This document shows positions 6,283 through 17,266 of a stretch of 33,338 bases of DNA, piece by piece. Each line of letters begins with the position of its first letter. The stretch's first letter is position 1. Origin of the DNA: Companilactobacillus tucceti DSM 20183 (lineage in GTDB: Bacteria; Bacillota; Bacilli; Lactobacillales; Lactobacillaceae); contig NZ_AZDG01000025.1 of assembly GCF_001434665.1 (NCBI RefSeq), forward strand, positions 1 through 33,338, read 5' to 3'. The notes under the pieces are model-generated. The model made no database searches. It was not told where the DNA came from and saw nothing but the letters and a program-made list of their open reading frames with translations. The position numbers and the translations under genes were made by a program.

Positions 6283-8085
6283 TTAAACAGCAACTTTCTT
6301 TAAAGCATCTTGAACTGCTTCTTTAATAGCAGTGCTAGAAACAGAAGCTCCAGAGACTGCATCAACATTAGTCGAGTTTGCTTCAAATATTTCTTGTGGC
6401 AACATTCTAATTGCTTTAACACCGTAGTCTTCTGATTCGCTTTGTTTTAGAATTTCTACATTTTGAATGTCTGAACCGTCCATCGTAACTCTAACGACGA
6501 TTTCATTACCCATACCAGAATTTGATCTTCCTATATATTGATTAGGTCCAGCGTCGAAATTTTCTTGGCTAGAAGTTTCTATACCTGTATGTTTACTGGC
6601 AGATGAAATGGCATCAACGGAATTTGTTTTTTCTTTAGCAGCATTTTCGCCGGCTATTTTACCAATTATCAGATCTTCAGCGAGATTGCTTCCACCGTTA
6701 TACTTGCGTCCCATCAAACTTCCTAATTCACCAGCAGCGTATAGATGAGGGATTACTTGGTCATCAGTATCGATTACTTCAGCATCGGAATTGTGAACAG
6801 GTCCACCGACGGTATTTAACAATCCTTGCACAAAAGCTAAAGCATAATATGGTCCATTATCAAATCCTGTTAAAGTCTTTGAATCCCTATTAAAGGCAAA
6901 ATCACGTTTCTCTTGGGCAAACTTATTGAAGTCTTCTACTGTTTCTTCTAGTTTATTAATACTTACATGGATTTTATCGGCAAGTTCCTTTAATGTGTCT
7001 GCCTTAATAACTTCTTTTAGAAATTCAGGATAAGGTGAGTTTTTATCGTTGTTTAGTTCATTAAATTTTTTAGAGTCAAAAATTACAAATGGATGCAATT
7101 GAGCATTCGGAACTCTCCATTGTCCGTGATCGTTAATATGTCCATGTCTGTGGATTTCATTTTCATCAAAGTAACGGGTACCATCATCTCCAACAACAAA
7201 TACACTACCACTATGTAGTGCAGGCCAGTCAAATGGTAAAAATTGAGCTCTTTTGCCTTTTGTTGGTTTAGGAGTTAATCCATGGAAAATACCATATGAT
7301 TCGTAATTTGCCATGTTGAATAATTTAGCGCCAACATCTTGAGCCATTTTGACACCAGCACCTTGATTATAGAGTGATCCAATAGGATGAAGACTAGTCT
7401 CTCCTAGGTACGTTTCTACCATTTCGGGATTGTTTTCAAATCCACCAGTTGCTAGAACGATACCGTTATTCACTTTAATATCAAGTAATTGACCATTTTG
7501 TTCAATTTGAACACCAATAATTGTTTTACTATCGTAATCTTGAATCAAATGCTTAGCTGGAGTCTCATATAGAACATCAATTTTGTCGCTTCGGTCAGTA
7601 ACTTGTTTGCGTAAATTCTTCCATAAAGCAGCATCAGCAACACCTTCGTGAACAGTAACAAGTTCGTGAGTATCACAGCCATTTAATTCAGGATATTCGT
7701 GAGCCATAAAATAAAGTGCTTTGGAGACTGGGGAATCTGGATGTTGTCCCATTACAAAAGGTTTGACGTCCAAATACTTTTCTAGATATTCAGGGATCTT
7801 GTATAATCCTTCAACATATTTATTCATCAATTTTTTATCGTAAGAAAGTGGGTAAGCTAACTCTTTGTAATATTCTTTCAAGTCGTCAAGATCGTCACCA
7901 GAAGCGATAACTTGACCTGCGTAACGAGTATTGCCACCCTCATGTCCCTCAGGAGCGGAATCAACTATTAAAACTTTGGCACCATTGTCCGCCGCAAATC
8001 GAGCAGCGGTTGCACCAGCACCACCGAATCCTAAAACAGCTACATCATAAGTTGCATCCCAACCGGTATATCTATTTTTGAACAT
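6283..8085 (-). CDS. Cytosolic fumarate-reductase-like flavoprotein (FAD_binding_2 plus FMN_bind)
   Basis: This 600-residue soluble protein starts with a Rossmann FAD site (YDVAVLGFGGAGATAA). The FAD_binding_2 domain of the fumarate/urocanate/cinnamate reductase superfamily runs to about residue 490. A C-terminal FMN_bind domain carries DAVSGAS at 575-581. That fits the ApbE flavinylation motif DxxS/TGAS/T, with S578 the predicted site of covalent FMN. It has no signal peptide or haem motifs, so it should be a cytosolic NADH-linked enoate reductase; related enzymes reduce fumarate or hydroxycinnamates. The segment GRKYNGGSNLAED differs from the usual fumarate reductase sequence, so the substrate is open. 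The start is ATG 8083-8085 with AAGGAG eight bases upstream; an in-frame GTG at 8094 overlaps that site. It is divergent from an Old Yellow Enzyme gene, a likely partner. Confidence 0.88.
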   Translation of the reverse strand: MFKNRYTGWDATYDVAVLGFGGAGATAARFAADNGAKVLIVDSAPEGHEGGNTRYAGQVIASGDDLDDLKEYYKELAYPLSYDKKLMNKYVEGLYKIPEYLEKYLDVKPFVMGQHPDSPVSKALYFMAHEYPELNGCDTHELVTVHEGVADAALWKNLRKQVTDRSDKIDVLYETPAKHLIQDYDSKTIIGVQIEQNGQLLDIKVNNGIVLATGGFENNPEMVETYLGETSLHPIGSLYNQGAGVKMAQDVGAKLFNMANYESYGIFHGLTPKPTKGKRAQFLPFDWPALHSGSVFVVGDDGTRYFDENEIHRHGHINDHGQWRVPNAQLHPFVIFDSKKFNELNNDKNSPYPEFLKEVIKADTLKELADKIHVSINKLEETVEDFNKFAQEKRDFAFNRDSKTLTGFDNGPYYALAFVQGLLNTVGGPVHNSDAEVIDTDDQVIPHLYAAGELGSLMGRKYNGGSNLAEDLIIGKIAGENAAKEKTNSVDAISSASKHTGIETSSQENFDAGPNQYIGRSNSGMGNEIVVRVTMDGSDIQNVEILKQSESEDYGVKAIRMLPQEIFEANSTNVDAVSGASVSSTAIKEAVQDALKKVAV

Positions 8086-8119
8086 ATTTCTCACTCCTTA
8101 ATTGTATTCATATACATCC

Positions 8120-8232: not shown

Positions 8233-9420
8233 ATGACAAATTATAAATTTTTGGAACCGTACACTTTTGAGAAAAAAGGAATTACAGTTAAAAATAGAAT
8301 CGTAATACCACCAATGACTGAAATGATGAGCTTTTCAAATGGTGAAGTTACACGAGACGAGCTTAGATATTATAGAATTCATACTGGTGGTGCAGGAATG
8401 TTTATTACTGCTGTTGCCAATGTTAATGATGAGGGTAAAGGATTTGAGGGTGAATTGAGTGCTGCGGATGACAAATTCATTCCTAGTTTGGCAAGTTTAG
8501 CAGATGCAATTCATAAAAATGGTACCAAGGCTATTTTGCAGATTTTTAGTGCCGGACGTATGACGTTTACATCAGTTCTCCGTGGCAAACAACCAGTTAG
8601 TGCTAGTGCTGTCAAAGCTTTACGTAATAATTCTGAGGAACCTAGAGCTTTAACGGAAGAAGAAGTTGAACAAACTATCAAAGACTTTGGCGCAGCAACT
8701 AAACGTGCAATTTTAGCCGGATTTGATGGAGTTGAAATTCACGGTGCTAATACTTATTTGATTCAACAATTCTTCTCACCACACAGTAATCGTCGTGATG
8801 ATAAGTGGGGTGGCAGTCTTGAAAAGAGAATGGCATTTCCATTTGCTGTGATTGATGAAGCACAAAAGGCAATTGATAAATATGCCAAGAAACCATTTAT
8901 TATGGGCTATCGTCTATCACCTGAGGAAGTAGAAAAACCAGGTATTACAATAGAAGATACTTTGGCATTTGTTGATGCGATCAAGAATAAACCAATTGAT
9001 TATTTACATGTTTCAATGGGTGATGTATGGCGTAAATCACTCAATGATTCGTCAATCGATAAACCATTGAATTTAATGATCAAGGAACATTTAGGACAAG
9101 ATATTCCATTGATTGGTGTTGGTGATATTCAATCACCAGCAGACGCTGAAAAGGTTATGGATAATGGTATTGAATTTGCTGCCATTGGTCGTGAAAGTCT
9201 TCGTGAACCAAACTGGGTAGAAAAAGTTGAATCAGGCGACGAAAACGCTATTCGTTATACACTATCATTGTCAGATCATGACGCATTAGGACTTTCAGGA
9301 ACATTCTGGGAATTCTTGTTAGCATCGTTTAGACCAGGACTACAAATTAGTAGTGACAAACAAACAGACCGTTCATTGTTCAATAACGCTTTGGATGGAA
9401 TATTTGCTGGAGCTAAGTAA
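8233..9420 (+). CDS. Old Yellow Enzyme-family NADH:flavin oxidoreductase
   Basis: The 395-residue protein is a TIM-barrel FMN enzyme of the NADH-dependent flavin oxidoreductase / OYE family. Signatures are VKNRIVIPPMTEMM near the N-terminus, the block FDGVEIHGANTYLIQQFF, SPHSNRRDDKWGGS, and the phosphate-binding stretch around GVGDIQSPADAEKVM and FAAIGRESL. It lacks the C-terminal iron-sulfur and NAD domains of 2,4-dienoyl-CoA reductase, so it is the short form. Such enzymes reduce activated alkenes or pass hydride to other flavoproteins. Divergent pairing with the FAD/FMN reductase suggests a joint enoate-reduction role; direct electron transfer between them is inference. Start ATG at 8233 has GGAGGG seven bases upstream. 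A strong terminator follows. Confidence 0.9.
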   Translation: MTNYKFLEPYTFEKKGITVKNRIVIPPMTEMMSFSNGEVTRDELRYYRIHTGGAGMFITAVANVNDEGKGFEGELSAADDKFIPSLASLADAIHKNGTKAILQIFSAGRMTFTSVLRGKQPVSASAVKALRNNSEEPRALTEEEVEQTIKDFGAATKRAILAGFDGVEIHGANTYLIQQFFSPHSNRRDDKWGGSLEKRMAFPFAVIDEAQKAIDKYAKKPFIMGYRLSPEEVEKPGITIEDTLAFVDAIKNKPIDYLHVSMGDVWRKSLNDSSIDKPLNLMIKEHLGQDIPLIGVGDIQSPADAEKVMDNGIEFAAIGRESLREPNWVEKVESGDENAIRYTLSLSDHDALGLSGTFWEFLLASFRPGLQISSDKQTDRSLFNNALDGIFAGAK

Positions 9421-13308: not shown

Positions 13309-13329
13309 TTTACATAAGAATGATTTTTT
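13288..13329. terminator. Bidirectional terminator between convergent genes
   Basis: A-run plus ATCATTC (to 13300) pairs with GAATGAT plus T-run (13318-13329), and TATGTA/TACATA extend the stem. The MocR stop (13306-13308) lies in the hairpin and the protease stop (13328-13330) at its far edge. Confidence 0.85.
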
Positions 13330-14041
13330 AGTAGATATTCTTTAATCCATCAATATCGCCTTCTGAAAGTTGAGTTACGTTTTGATTAGATGGATACATG
13401 ACTGAATTCATATCGTCACTGTGATCTAAGCCTAAAGCATGACCAACTTCATGCATCGCTACAGAAGTTGTAACGGATTCGGAATAGTTTAAATTGATTG
13501 ATGCAGTGGCATGGTTGATTGCATGCTTAGTTGCATCATTAGTATTATAAATTAATTTTGGACCGCCATTTCCTAATTCGACTGAAGTGGTATTTGCTCC
13601 TTCGTCTTTATAATAAATCGAAAAGGTGATTCGATTTTGTTTAGAAGTACCTTCACCAGCAACTAAATTTACTAAGCCAGTGTCGTTATAAGCACTAATT
13701 GCGTTTTCAAATACCTGTCTAACTGCCGTGGGGGTCTTTTTTGTAAAATGATAATAATAAGTATTATCAACAGAAAACCCATCCATAATCGATAAAATGG
13801 GAGTTTGGCCCGTTGAAGTAGTTTGACTTTTTGAAGCAGTTTTTGTGTTATTAGACGTTGTCTGGCTTGGCTGTTTAGTTTGAATAAGATTGTTTACTTT
13901 AGATTGCAAATACGTAGTAGTAGTACTTACTTTACTAGTGATTTCTGTCTTAATATTGTTGGAATAATTACTATCAGATTCGTTTATTACAATACCACCA
14001 ATTACGACAGCTAACCCGAGTAATGCGATACTTCTATTCAT
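13328..14041 (-). CDS. Matrixin-like (M10) zinc metalloprotease, secreted or membrane-anchored
   Basis: The 237-residue protein has a hydrophobic N-terminus (IALLGLAVVIGGIVI) serving as signal peptide or anchor. A Ser/Thr/Gln/Asn-rich linker follows to about residue 85, then a catalytic domain. The zinc site is HEVGHALGLDH at 197-207, a perfect HExxHxxGxxH metzincin motif, with the Met-turn in SVMYP at about 213-217. This is the M10 peptidase pattern. It should act outside the cell on protein substrates that cannot be predicted. No propeptide cysteine switch is evident and the protein has no cysteines in the catalytic domain. It is monocistronic, convergent with the MocR gene and divergent from the CPBP gene. 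Confidence 0.87.
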   Translation of the reverse strand: MNRSIALLGLAVVIGGIVINESDSNYSNNIKTEITSKVSTTTTYLQSKVNNLIQTKQPSQTTSNNTKTASKSQTTSTGQTPILSIMDGFSVDNTYYYHFTKKTPTAVRQVFENAISAYNDTGLVNLVAGEGTSKQNRITFSIYYKDEGANTTSVELGNGGPKLIYNTNDATKHAINHATASINLNYSESVTTSVAMHEVGHALGLDHSDDMNSVMYPSNQNVTQLSEGDIDGLKNIY

Positions 14042-15849: not shown

Positions 15850-16353
15850 ATGTCAGAGCCAGAATTTAAAGAAGGATACGTAAATTTTAAGACTGGAAGA
15901 TTGTCATTAAAGGAAATTCAACAAATTTTTAATACATTACCATTTGAAGTCGATTTTATTGATCAAACAGATCATTTCCGTTATTTTTCAGACAAAAAGA
16001 ACCGAGTTCATGAACGTTCAGTCGATGTTTTAGGAGAAACTGTTGAGGAGTGTCATCCTGCTAAAGTATTGCCATTTGTTAAAAAAGTGATTGATTCATT
16101 TAAAGATGGACAAGAAGATCAGTATGAAATGTGCATGCCACTGCATGGAAAACTAGTTTATATTCAATATTTTGCTATTCGTGACGAAGACAAGAATTAC
16201 TTAGGTACGATGGAGTTTACAGGAGATATCAGTCATATTAAAGAACTCGTTTCTGATAGTCCTGATGCTACAACTGGTGCCTCAAAACATGATGATATCA
16301 AGAAACCAGTTCCCGATGCAATGACAGGTGCCTCAAAACACGATGATAAATAA
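15850..16353 (+). CDS. PAS_10-domain protein with two C-terminal flavinylation motifs
   Basis: This 167-residue soluble protein has a short N-terminal helix, then a PAS domain at about 25-135 of the PAS_10/DUF438-associated type. Key segments are IQQIFNTLPFEVDFID, RVHERSVDVLGETVEECHP and YLGTMEFTGDISHIKEL. The tail holds two near-identical repeats, PDATTGASKHDD (138-149) and PDAMTGASKHDD (155-166). DATTGAS and DAMTGAS both fit the ApbE motif DxxS/TGAS/T, so T142 and T159 are predicted covalent FMN sites. There is no signal peptide, so modification would be cytosolic. apbE overlaps the last codons, which strongly supports the reading. The role is unknown: a redox or ligand sensor, or a small electron carrier. 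Start ATG 15850 has AAGGAG eight bases upstream; an in-frame GTG at 15841 overlaps that site. Confidence 0.85.
   Translation: MSEPEFKEGYVNFKTGRLSLKEIQQIFNTLPFEVDFIDQTDHFRYFSDKKNRVHERSVDVLGETVEECHPAKVLPFVKKVIDSFKDGQEDQYEMCMPLHGKLVYIQYFAIRDEDKNYLGTMEFTGDISHIKELVSDSPDATTGASKHDDIKKPVPDAMTGASKHDDK
16261..16347 (+). repeat. Tandem flavinylation-tag repeat in the PAS gene
   Basis: Two 36-bp coding units (from 16261 and 16312) encode PD-A-x-T-G-A-S-K-H-D-D, separated by the five-residue linker IKKPV. The DNA copies differ at several positions (for example aaacat versus aaacac) while the protein motif is kept apart from one T/M change, consistent with selection on the peptide. Confidence 0.85.
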
Positions 16354-17266
16354 TTTGTCGTATAAAAAAAATCAAAAGAGTATCTATGCTTTAGGGACAG
16401 AAATTAATCTAACGACTTTTGGAACTAGAGATGATCTAGCAATTGATCGTGCGGTAGATTTGATTGAGTCGTTTGAGAACCTGTTTACGGTGAATCGGAC
16501 CCATTCTGAGGTTATGGATATAAATTATGCTGCTGGTAAAAATCCAGTTCAAGTAAGTCCAGCAACTTACTTTTTGATTAAAAAGGCTGTTAAGTATAGT
16601 CGGGAACAATTTGGATTTAATGTTTCTATAGGTCCACTCGTGAAACTATGGAAAATCGGTTTTGATGGTGCTAATAAACCTAAAAATGAAGATATAAAAG
16701 CAAAAATCAAACTAATAGATCCAATACAAATACAGTTAGATGATAGAAATTTGACCGTTTTTTTAAAGCATCCTGGAATGGAATTGGATTTAGGTGGAAT
16801 AGCTAAGGGCTATATTGCAGATCGTATTAGAGATCTTTGGAGAGCATTTGGAATAAAAAATGGAATTATCGATCTAGGTGGGAATTTACTTTTTGTTGGC
16901 GACAGTGTTCATGATGACAAGAAATGGATCATCGGAATTCAAAGTCCAATAAATAATAGAGGCATATCCTTAGGAAATGTTAAAATGCCTGCTTGCTCTG
17001 CGGTCACTACTGGTATTTATGAACGATTTTTAGAAATAGATGGCAAAAAATATCATCATATTATCGATCCGAGAACAGGTTATCCACTACAGACTGACCT
17101 TGCCAGTGTGACGGTCTTTACTAGAGATTCAATTATTGGTGAAATTGAGGCTAAACGGTTATTCTTTTCTGGAAATACCAAGGTAAAACTTACTAATGAA
17201 TTATATGGAGCCGTATTTGTGTACCAAGATGGTTCATATAAGTCGATTGGCACAAAAATGATTTGA
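16343..17266 (+). CDS. apbE: FAD:protein FMN transferase (ApbE family)
   Basis: ApbE transfers FMN from FAD to Ser/Thr in DxxS/TGAS/T motifs. The 307-residue protein shows the family blocks ALGTEINLTTFG, FNVSIGPLVKLWKIG, LDLGGIAKGYIADRI, IIDLGGNLLFVGD, TTGIYERFLEIDGKKYHHI and IDPRTGYPLQ. It has no signal peptide or lipobox, so it acts in the cytosol. The C-terminal block reads SIIGEIEAKRLFFSG: the usual metal-binding Asp is E267 and the usual Thr is K271, an unusual site worth testing. The start is uncertain. ATG 16343 overlaps the PAS gene by 11 bp with no clear ribosome site, implying translational coupling; GTG 16328 and TTG 16355 are alternatives. Likely substrates are the PAS tail and the reductase at 6283-8085. 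Confidence 0.9.
   Translation: MINNLSYKKNQKSIYALGTEINLTTFGTRDDLAIDRAVDLIESFENLFTVNRTHSEVMDINYAAGKNPVQVSPATYFLIKKAVKYSREQFGFNVSIGPLVKLWKIGFDGANKPKNEDIKAKIKLIDPIQIQLDDRNLTVFLKHPGMELDLGGIAKGYIADRIRDLWRAFGIKNGIIDLGGNLLFVGDSVHDDKKWIIGIQSPINNRGISLGNVKMPACSAVTTGIYERFLEIDGKKYHHIIDPRTGYPLQTDLASVTVFTRDSIIGEIEAKRLFFSGNTKVKLTNELYGAVFVYQDGSYKSIGTKMI

Follow-up and report, generated by a model that had tools for sequence, protein, structure and literature searches.

A small PAS_10 protein with two predicted flavinylation tags and an overlapping apbE gene in Companilactobacillus tucceti

Introduction

A 33,338-nucleotide stretch of DNA from Companilactobacillus tucceti DSM 20183, called the window throughout, contains the gene of a small PAS_10 protein overlapped by a gene for ApbE, the FAD:protein FMN transferase (FAD, flavin adenine dinucleotide; FMN, flavin mononucleotide). 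The PAS_10 protein ends in a tail holding two copies of the seven-residue ApbE-substrate motif, hereafter the tags. What could such a protein do? We consider, with moderate confidence, that it is a soluble, covalently flavinylated carrier whose tail FMNs relay electrons to a second flavoprotein.

The PAS_10 protein, its tail and its ApbE

The features of the two genes are as follows.
15850..16353, + strand: PAS_10 protein, 167 amino acids (Pfam PF13596, E 4.6e-22; relatives 3cax and 2qkp in the PDB)
16252..16350, + strand: C-terminal tail, residues 135-167, predicted disordered (AlphaFold2, predicted local distance difference test (pLDDT) < 50)
16264..16284, + strand: flavinylation tag 1, DATTGAS, residues 139-145, predicted FMN acceptor S145 (motif match)
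16315..16335, + strand: flavinylation tag 2, DAMTGAS, residues 156-162, predicted FMN acceptor S162 (motif match)
16343..17266, + strand: ApbE, FAD:protein FMN transferase, starts MINNLSYKKNQK (Pfam PF02424, E 1.9e-70)

The open reading frame (ORF) of the PAS_10 protein starts with an ATG preceded by AAGGAG and lies in a genome of 2.17 Mb (G000). The closest named relatives found are from Companilactobacillus baiquanensis, C. kedongensis and C. keshanensis (94%, 92% and 91% identity, respectively). The AlphaFold2 model was built with a 23-row alignment, and a structure search with the residues before the tail returned the PAS structures 3cax and 2qkp first; the later fold matches were weak, mostly 8-20% identical, and included heme- and FAD-binding PAS domains. 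In a Pfam scan, the protein matched neither an FMN_red domain, nor a folded FMN_bind domain (PF04205), nor any second (output) domain. The lack of an output domain led us to reject a PAS redox sensor that would signal through one. A promoter scan gave no more matches than shuffled sequence does, and a terminator scan gave none.

Both tags are strict copies of D-x-x-[S/T]-G-A-[S/T], the published ApbE motif, in which FMN is attached to the last residue (PMC12052999), and the predicted acceptors are therefore S145 and S162. T142 and T159, proposed in an earlier note on this DNA, are at position 4 of the motif and were discarded; the same note's description of two ApbE-type tags on an unstructured tail beside a PAS_10 domain was borne out. 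None of 20,000 shuffles of the tail gave two strict motifs.

The likely ATG of apbE, at 16343, sits within the last codons of the PAS_10 gene, and the two genes overlap by 11 nucleotides. The best PDB match of the ApbE is 7esa, an FAD:protein FMN transferase (E 3.6e-62), with which it has the stretches DLG(G/A)IAKG and HHI(I/L)DPxTG in common. A profile search found no other ApbE in the whole genome. Judged by eye, its N-terminus has neither a leader nor a lipobox. Among 43 ApbEs near relatives of the PAS_10 protein (two of them duplicates), none passed our own leader criterion, a 15-residue mean hydropathy above 1.6 used rather than a signal-peptide program (highest value 1.56), and none had a lipobox-like site. 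With its overlapping gene and no visible leader, the window ApbE appears to be a cognate enzyme in the same compartment as the PAS_10 protein, as had been supposed when it was called cytosolic.

Conservation of the tags

We compared the tail codons of the window with those of C. baiquanensis, C. kedongensis and C. keshanensis. Nine of the 14 motif codons varied among the four species without a single amino-acid change, versus 14 variable codons and seven amino-acid changes for the 20 other tail codons (hypergeometric p 0.014 for amino-acid change among variable codons). This pattern indicates that the motif codons are under purifying selection.

At the family level, 80 loci were mapped, 20 from one search and 60 further regions (59 candidates and one control); these 60 regions and the 20 loci of an order-level sample were hand-picked for spread from the best-scoring lists, and the search profile includes the tail itself. 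The 80 loci contained 82 PAS_10 ORFs, 78 of them with at least one tag, and 43 of the tagged ones had an ApbE within 4 kb. When two duplicate loci were dropped, 76 of 80 distinct PAS_10 ORFs were tagged, 41 with an ApbE within 4 kb. Of the four untagged ORFs, one was a DUF438-type protein from Anaerolineaceae, one was the chosen control and one a DxxTGPS variant; the fourth was half of a split frame. The 76 distinct tails held 151 strict tags, where shuffling gave 0.27 on average (maximum 3 in 500), and 215 relaxed tags, where it gave 2.7 (maximum 9), the last residue being serine in 208 of these 215; before duplicate removal, the 78 tails held 152 strict and 220 relaxed tags. At the order level, tags were present in 20/20 loci (2-9 each) and ApbE in the region of 18/20. 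Thus, the tail repeats are conserved in relatives and the apbE linkage recurs elsewhere, two points that the earlier note had put up for checking.

As controls, we used 34 PAS_10 proteins, of which 33 are similar to the N-terminal part of a DUF438-hemerythrin protein; none had a tag after the domain and none had ApbE in its flanks (up to 1.5 kb), six of them, from Companilactobacillus (L012-L017), having been known to be motif-free before they were counted as controls. A chance origin of the motif is ruled out by the shuffles, the codon conservation and these untagged controls.

Position 4 of the motif is an alanine in loci of several genera. At L086-L089, L094, L105 and L134, the tags read DxxASAS or DxxAGAS, outside the published consensus, and the ApbEs of these loci may differ in motif recognition. 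At L111 and L141, the PAS_10 tails have DxxTGPS instead of DxxTGAS.

Co-occurrence with ApbE and FMN_bind

We looked at 397 Lactobacillaceae genomes. The tailed PAS_10 profile matched in 206 of them at E 1e-6, and ApbE was found in 253. With cut-offs for strong matches of E 1e-35 (tailed PAS_10) and E 1e-30 (ApbE), a strong ApbE was present in 178 of the 179 genomes with a strong tailed PAS_10 versus 48 of the 218 others (Fisher p 3e-66, not corrected for phylogeny). The sole exception, G284, is a genome that is 76% complete.

These genomes also bear on whether the tail is flavinylated at all, since ApbE could serve only the fumarate-reductase-like flavoprotein encoded at 6283-8094, the motif having another role. 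The window's genome does contain this good FMN_bind substrate. However, 31 of the 179 strong-match genomes had no FMN_bind match (E 1e-3) and 30 of those 31 had ApbE, the tail being the only recognisable ApbE substrate in these 30; an FMN_bind reductase as the general sole substrate of ApbE is thereby ruled out. The purifying selection indicated at the motif codons and the flavinylation of C-terminal FMN_red motifs in Lactococcus (PMC11334425) argue in the same direction, and we regard an unflavinylated tail as very improbable.

A strong ApbE came without a PAS_10 match (E 1e-6) in 29 genomes, of which 23 had FMN_bind and 6 did not. A strong ApbE with neither FMN_bind nor PAS_10 (E 0.01) was found in G022, G053, G092, G145, G311 and G351, which our interpretation does not cover. 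A discordant set of 30 genomes was assembled from 19 with weak PAS_10 and strong ApbE, the 6 without PAS_10, and 5 of 8 with weak PAS_10 and no strong ApbE (G113, G121 and G139, of this last kind, were left out). Among the 26 matches listed for this set, 8 were tagged, 5 had the tag on an adjoining FMN_red and in 13 none was found; these 13, which also fall outside our interpretation, comprise 7 proteins the size of DUF438 ones, 5 standalone ones 143-167 amino acids long and L266, without a scorable ORF.

In six genomes of group g22, FMN_bind is absent and the PAS_10 is very divergent (Pfam E 9.7e-5 and 3.4e-5 for the two scanned), with a single C-terminal DAISGAS and an adjoining ApbE. This layout is the window's arrangement in a distant lineage. 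In all 5 genomes of groups g18 and g19 with a PAS_10 match, the gene order is an FMN_red bearing DATTGAS at its C-terminus, ApbE and an untagged PAS_10. At L257, L259-L262, L275 and L276, the tag is on FMN_red and absent from the PAS_10 of the same operon; the tag changes subunit.

Relatives joined to FMN reductases

The commonest layout among relatives is ApbE, a small FMN_red, and an FMN_red-PAS_10-tail protein. In three sister Companilactobacillus species (L036, L038 and L039), the FMN_red-fused form occupies the window's own locus, flanked by an MscS gene and by EntA-immunity and cyclophilin genes, and a fourth, L037, is consistent up to the end of its contig. In a tree, the PAS_10 domain of the window falls among these fused forms (12-tip group, support 0.89). 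Given the shared locus and this place in the tree, loss of both FMN_red parts in the window's clade is the most likely history. In the same tree, the subfamily of the window's protein lies closer to PAS_10 of the DUF438 type than to the tailed type that is commonest, with supports of 0.76-0.89 and controls that do not form one clade. The only FMN_red proteins in the four genomes of the window's clade are 30-35% identical to the fused domain; proteins of this kind occur in the four comparison genomes in addition to the true partners.

The largest forms, those of Aerococcaceae bacterium DSM 111022 and DSM 111020 and of L205, contain three PAS_10 domains, and their 7-9 tags are distributed over the linkers and the end. 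At L049:5197-7899, L050:3865-6537 and L205:6100-8745, the three domains come after an FMN_red, and the gene adjoins a small FMN_red and ApbE. We consider these proteins candidates for a serial flavin wire.

The assembly of C. halodurans has the fused gene (L052:4986-6213) broken across two frames.

A candidate electron acceptor

The following features, elsewhere in the window, concern the possible partners of the PAS_10 protein.
6283..8094, - strand: fumarate-reductase-like flavoprotein, FAD_binding_2 + FMN_bind (Pfam)
6343..6363, - strand: FMN_bind flavinylation motif DAVSGAS, residues 578-584 (motif match)
6595..6615, - strand: tag-like DAISSAS, residues 494-500, in the linker preceding FMN_bind (motif match)
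8233..9420, + strand: NAD(P)H:flavin oxidoreductase of the Old Yellow Enzyme type, its gene divergent from that of the reductase (Pfam PF00724, E 1.2e-75)

The reductase contains the sole FMN_bind match of the window's genome. Its linker tag recurs in 12 of 13 FMN_bind-bearing copies of about 600-650 amino acids, all from Companilactobacillus (the window, L043-L047, L052 and L210-L214; L041 is without it), which together with the FMN_bind motif suggests two covalent FMNs per reductase. In seven of eight Companilactobacillus loci of a second type, the FMN_bind reductase is divergent from an apbE-FMN_red-fusion operon; the eighth, L042, begins at a contig edge. The link to the reductase that the earlier note had offered as a possibility therefore gains weight from these seven loci, and the reductase is likely the electron-accepting partner and a second ApbE substrate. 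An Old Yellow Enzyme is also near the reductase in L211, L212 and L214; the four species that make up the FMN_red-less clade all have this neighbour. A Klebsiella fumarate reductase has an Old Yellow Enzyme-like domain.

Other genomes join the same parts. In L275 and L276, the tagged FMN_red, ApbE and PAS_10 are followed within a single stretch by a LysR regulator, and this by a class II fumarase, a flavoprotein of the soluble fumarate-reductase type and a DASS anion symporter. Fumarase, flavoprotein and symporter share the region with the tailed protein in L086, L088, L097 and L132, and the first two do so in L095. L107:5466-8537 encodes a 1024-residue FMN_red-PAS_10-tags-FMN_bind-FAD_binding_2 fusion with a further C-terminal DTVSSAS. 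In G002 (L210), the second member of an FMN_red pair of the same kind is instead fused to FMN_bind-FAD_binding_2 in an 812-residue protein, an architecture that L. plantarum HcrB presumably has. A COG0431 domain is found in both HcrA and HcrB, and HcrB needs reduced nicotinamide adenine dinucleotide (NADH) and FMN (PMC10295242). Of the 31 FMN_bind-less genomes that have the tailed protein, 29 were searched for FAD_binding_2; 25 had such a protein, with a best frame of 463-482 amino acids in 20 of the 25.

Published relatives and other explanations

LjPAS of Lactobacillus johnsonii is a 28-kDa PAS protein studied together with FRedA/FRedB, an NADH:FMN reductase that forms hydrogen peroxide and is identical to the LJ0548/LJ0549 products (PMC4500961). 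With free FMN, for which the Michaelis constant is about 20 µM, FRedA/B forms hydrogen peroxide, and a gene interruption is cited as abolishing its production in L. johnsonii (PMC4500961). As in the window, the PAS protein is encoded apart from the FMN reductases, and homologues are fused to them elsewhere in Lactobacillaceae. The window protein has the PAS_10 domain, and among its homologues are ones that share a chain or a locus with paired FMN reductases; on this basis we class it as an FMN_red-less member of the LjPAS family, LjPAS being known here by its description. Unlike the window's protein with its ApbE-type tags, LjPAS is described without mention of ApbE: the terms ApbE, flavinyl- and C-terminal do not occur in that text, in which LjPAS is produced in E. 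coli and ApbE co-expression is not mentioned (PMC4500961).

LjPAS raises a second explanation, that of a redox regulator, in which PAS_10 senses oxygen or redox state and slows the assembly or activity of the FMN reductase, the tail flavins, if any, being the sensing group. Its expression is repressed more than 3-fold anaerobically, and preincubation of FRedB with LjPAS lowered the initial rate by 50% (PMC4500961). However, a search of the window's clade gave no close FRedA/B, and the PAS_10 protein has no output domain. Moreover, up to 9 tags on a three-PAS_10 chain, the shift of the tag to FMN_red and the fusion to a reductase look like electron transfer, and the LjPAS studied was made in E. 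coli, ApbE co-expression being unmentioned there (PMC4500961). We therefore find a regulator unlikely. Of the two roles suggested by the earlier note, redox sensor or soluble electron shuttle, an electron relay is the better supported and a pure redox sensor the less so.

A third explanation takes the tethered FMNs as the arm of an NADH oxidase, mainly reducing oxygen to hydrogen peroxide for oxygen scavenging, with fumarate-type reductases being secondary. The hydrogen peroxide formed by FRedA/B with free FMN, and its loss upon interruption, would fit (PMC4500961), as would the four of the 29 searched FMN_bind-less genomes that gave no FAD_binding_2 match. Against this, the neighbouring genes and one fusion indicate fumarate or enoate reductases, and a close FRedA/B is again missing from the window's clade; we judge this explanation quite improbable, below that of a regulator.

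Covalent flavin at a C-terminus is also published. Two Lactococcus FMN_red proteins are flavinylated by their cognate ApbE at motifs in a C-terminal extension, as determined by co-expression and S/T-to-A mutants (mSystems 2024, PMC11334425). Like the window protein, they have one to two motifs in this extension and a cognate ApbE; unlike them, the window protein has no FMN_red domain bearing the motif, although its relatives do. The word 'PAS' is absent from the main text of that paper (PMC11334425). On a Lactococcus lactis plasmid, however, a single protein combines FMN_red and PAS_10 with two DATSGAS tags, and the second gene upstream of it is annotated as an FAD:protein FMN transferase; the flavinylated proteins of PMC11334425 may therefore well belong to the tailed PAS_10 family. 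The engineered flavin-tag resembles the window's in that a seven-residue terminal motif suffices for ApbE (PMC12052999); the tag of the window is natural, repeated and conserved. The FMN_bind reductases of the fumarate, urocanate and hydroxycinnamate type also feed an FAD_binding_2 reductase from ApbE-attached FMN, as we propose here, and the FMN_red input module fused to FMN_bind-FAD_binding_2 in the 812-residue L210 protein is the same as in the tailed family, but these enzymes hold FMN in a folded domain and the window protein on a short disordered tail.

In the Creative Commons-licensed PMC literature, a search for flavinylation with PAS domain met 'PAS domain' only inside a reference title, and flavinylation, lactobacilli and FMN reductase jointly gave nothing. 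An FMN_red-less flavinylated PAS_10 carrier, tag counts up to 9 and a link of the tail to fumarate-type reductases were likewise not found there. The earlier note's view of an arrangement without known precedent thus holds for the FMN_red-less carrier in the literature searched and gives way for its parts: C-terminal flavinylation of FMN_red proteins (PMC11334425) and the PAS-FMN_red family (PMC4500961) are both in print, each text, in its available part, without the other's key element. For this reason, the window's system is not categorically new.

Proposed mechanism and points against it

In the relay that we favour, the overlapping ApbE would flavinylate the disordered tail at S145 and S162, a step with strong support. 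The tethered FMNs would then act as swinging arms, reduced by an NAD(P)H-dependent flavoprotein and in turn reducing a second flavoprotein, which the relatives suggest is most likely the reductase 6283-8094. PAS_10 probably serves as a platform for dimerisation or for docking flavin. In most of the relatives examined, the input would come from the small FMN_red and the FMN_red domain on the PAS_10-tail chain. In the window's clade, we speculate that it comes from the Old Yellow Enzyme, because this enzyme is near the reductase in all four FMN_red-less species; this is the weakest step. The fusions (L107 and L210) and the fumarase, reductase and symporter neighbours suggest, as the simplest scheme, NADH to FMN_red to tethered FMN to FAD reductase, with oxygen as the likely alternative acceptor.

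Several points weigh against this relay. FMN on the PAS_10 tail serines is a prediction from the motif, and ApbE reportedly favours threonine over serine (PMC12052999), the residue that ends 208 of the 215 relaxed tags. The co-occurrence statistic ignores phylogeny, and its strong matches depend on a profile that contains the tail. No close FMN-reductase partner (FRedA/B) was found in the window's genome, in which FMN_red matches are 26-35% identical, and the role given to LjPAS in print is that of modulating FMN-reductase assembly rather than carrying electrons (PMC4500961). The PAS_10 gene and the reductase are about 8 kb apart in the window, and a separate fumarate reductase gene is in the fetched region of just 12 of the 80 family-level loci (L107 being the fusion). 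Finally, 4 of the 29 genomes searched that have the tailed protein and no FMN_bind also give no FAD_binding_2 match (E 1e-20), so other electron acceptors must exist.

A broader picture, which we offer tentatively as a possibility somewhat short of even, is a cytosolic 'flavin wire' of Lactobacillales: PAS_10 scaffolds with disordered linkers carrying 1-9 ApbE-attached FMNs, docked by PAS_10, would replace free reduced FMN as the donor to soluble fumarate- or enoate-type reductases and to oxygen, and LjPAS would be a carrier subunit whose activity was missed since it was made without ApbE. The tailed PAS_10 is a candidate substrate for the ApbEs of lactic acid bacteria in which an FMN_bind protein is absent. 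The relay suggests what might donate electrons to their soluble single-domain fumarate reductases, and it allows the hydrogen peroxide-forming FMN reductase/LjPAS system to be read in a new way. If true, it would provide natural serial, disordered, covalent flavin arms, useful in the design of soluble electron relays.

Extent of the family and neighbouring genes

In a phylum sample of 398 genomes, few of them from Lactobacillales, 98 matched the profile at E 1e-25. The matches listed, except those of the window's genome and one order member, stop at profile positions 131-161 of 183, and no tag was found in any of 28 phylum-level loci scanned. In the order sample, the tailed PAS_10 profile matched in 155 of 295 genomes (E 1e-20). 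The family thus looks centred on Lactobacillales. A related protein was found in 112 plasmid records, mostly from Enterococcus (95), and Lactococcus (8), with one record each from Cytobacillus and Deinococcus. At L244 and L245, an apbE - FMN_red - FMN_red-PAS_10-tail operon is on a Lactococcus and an Enterococcus plasmid, the latter copy lying between IS1216 copies.

Directly after apbE, the window has a small enterocin A immunity-like gene (PF08951, 17318-17623), which is also at the locus in sister species. At 13328-14041, it encodes a secreted-looking metalloprotease with the stretch HEVGHALGLDH, which we take to be a matrixin-type motif.

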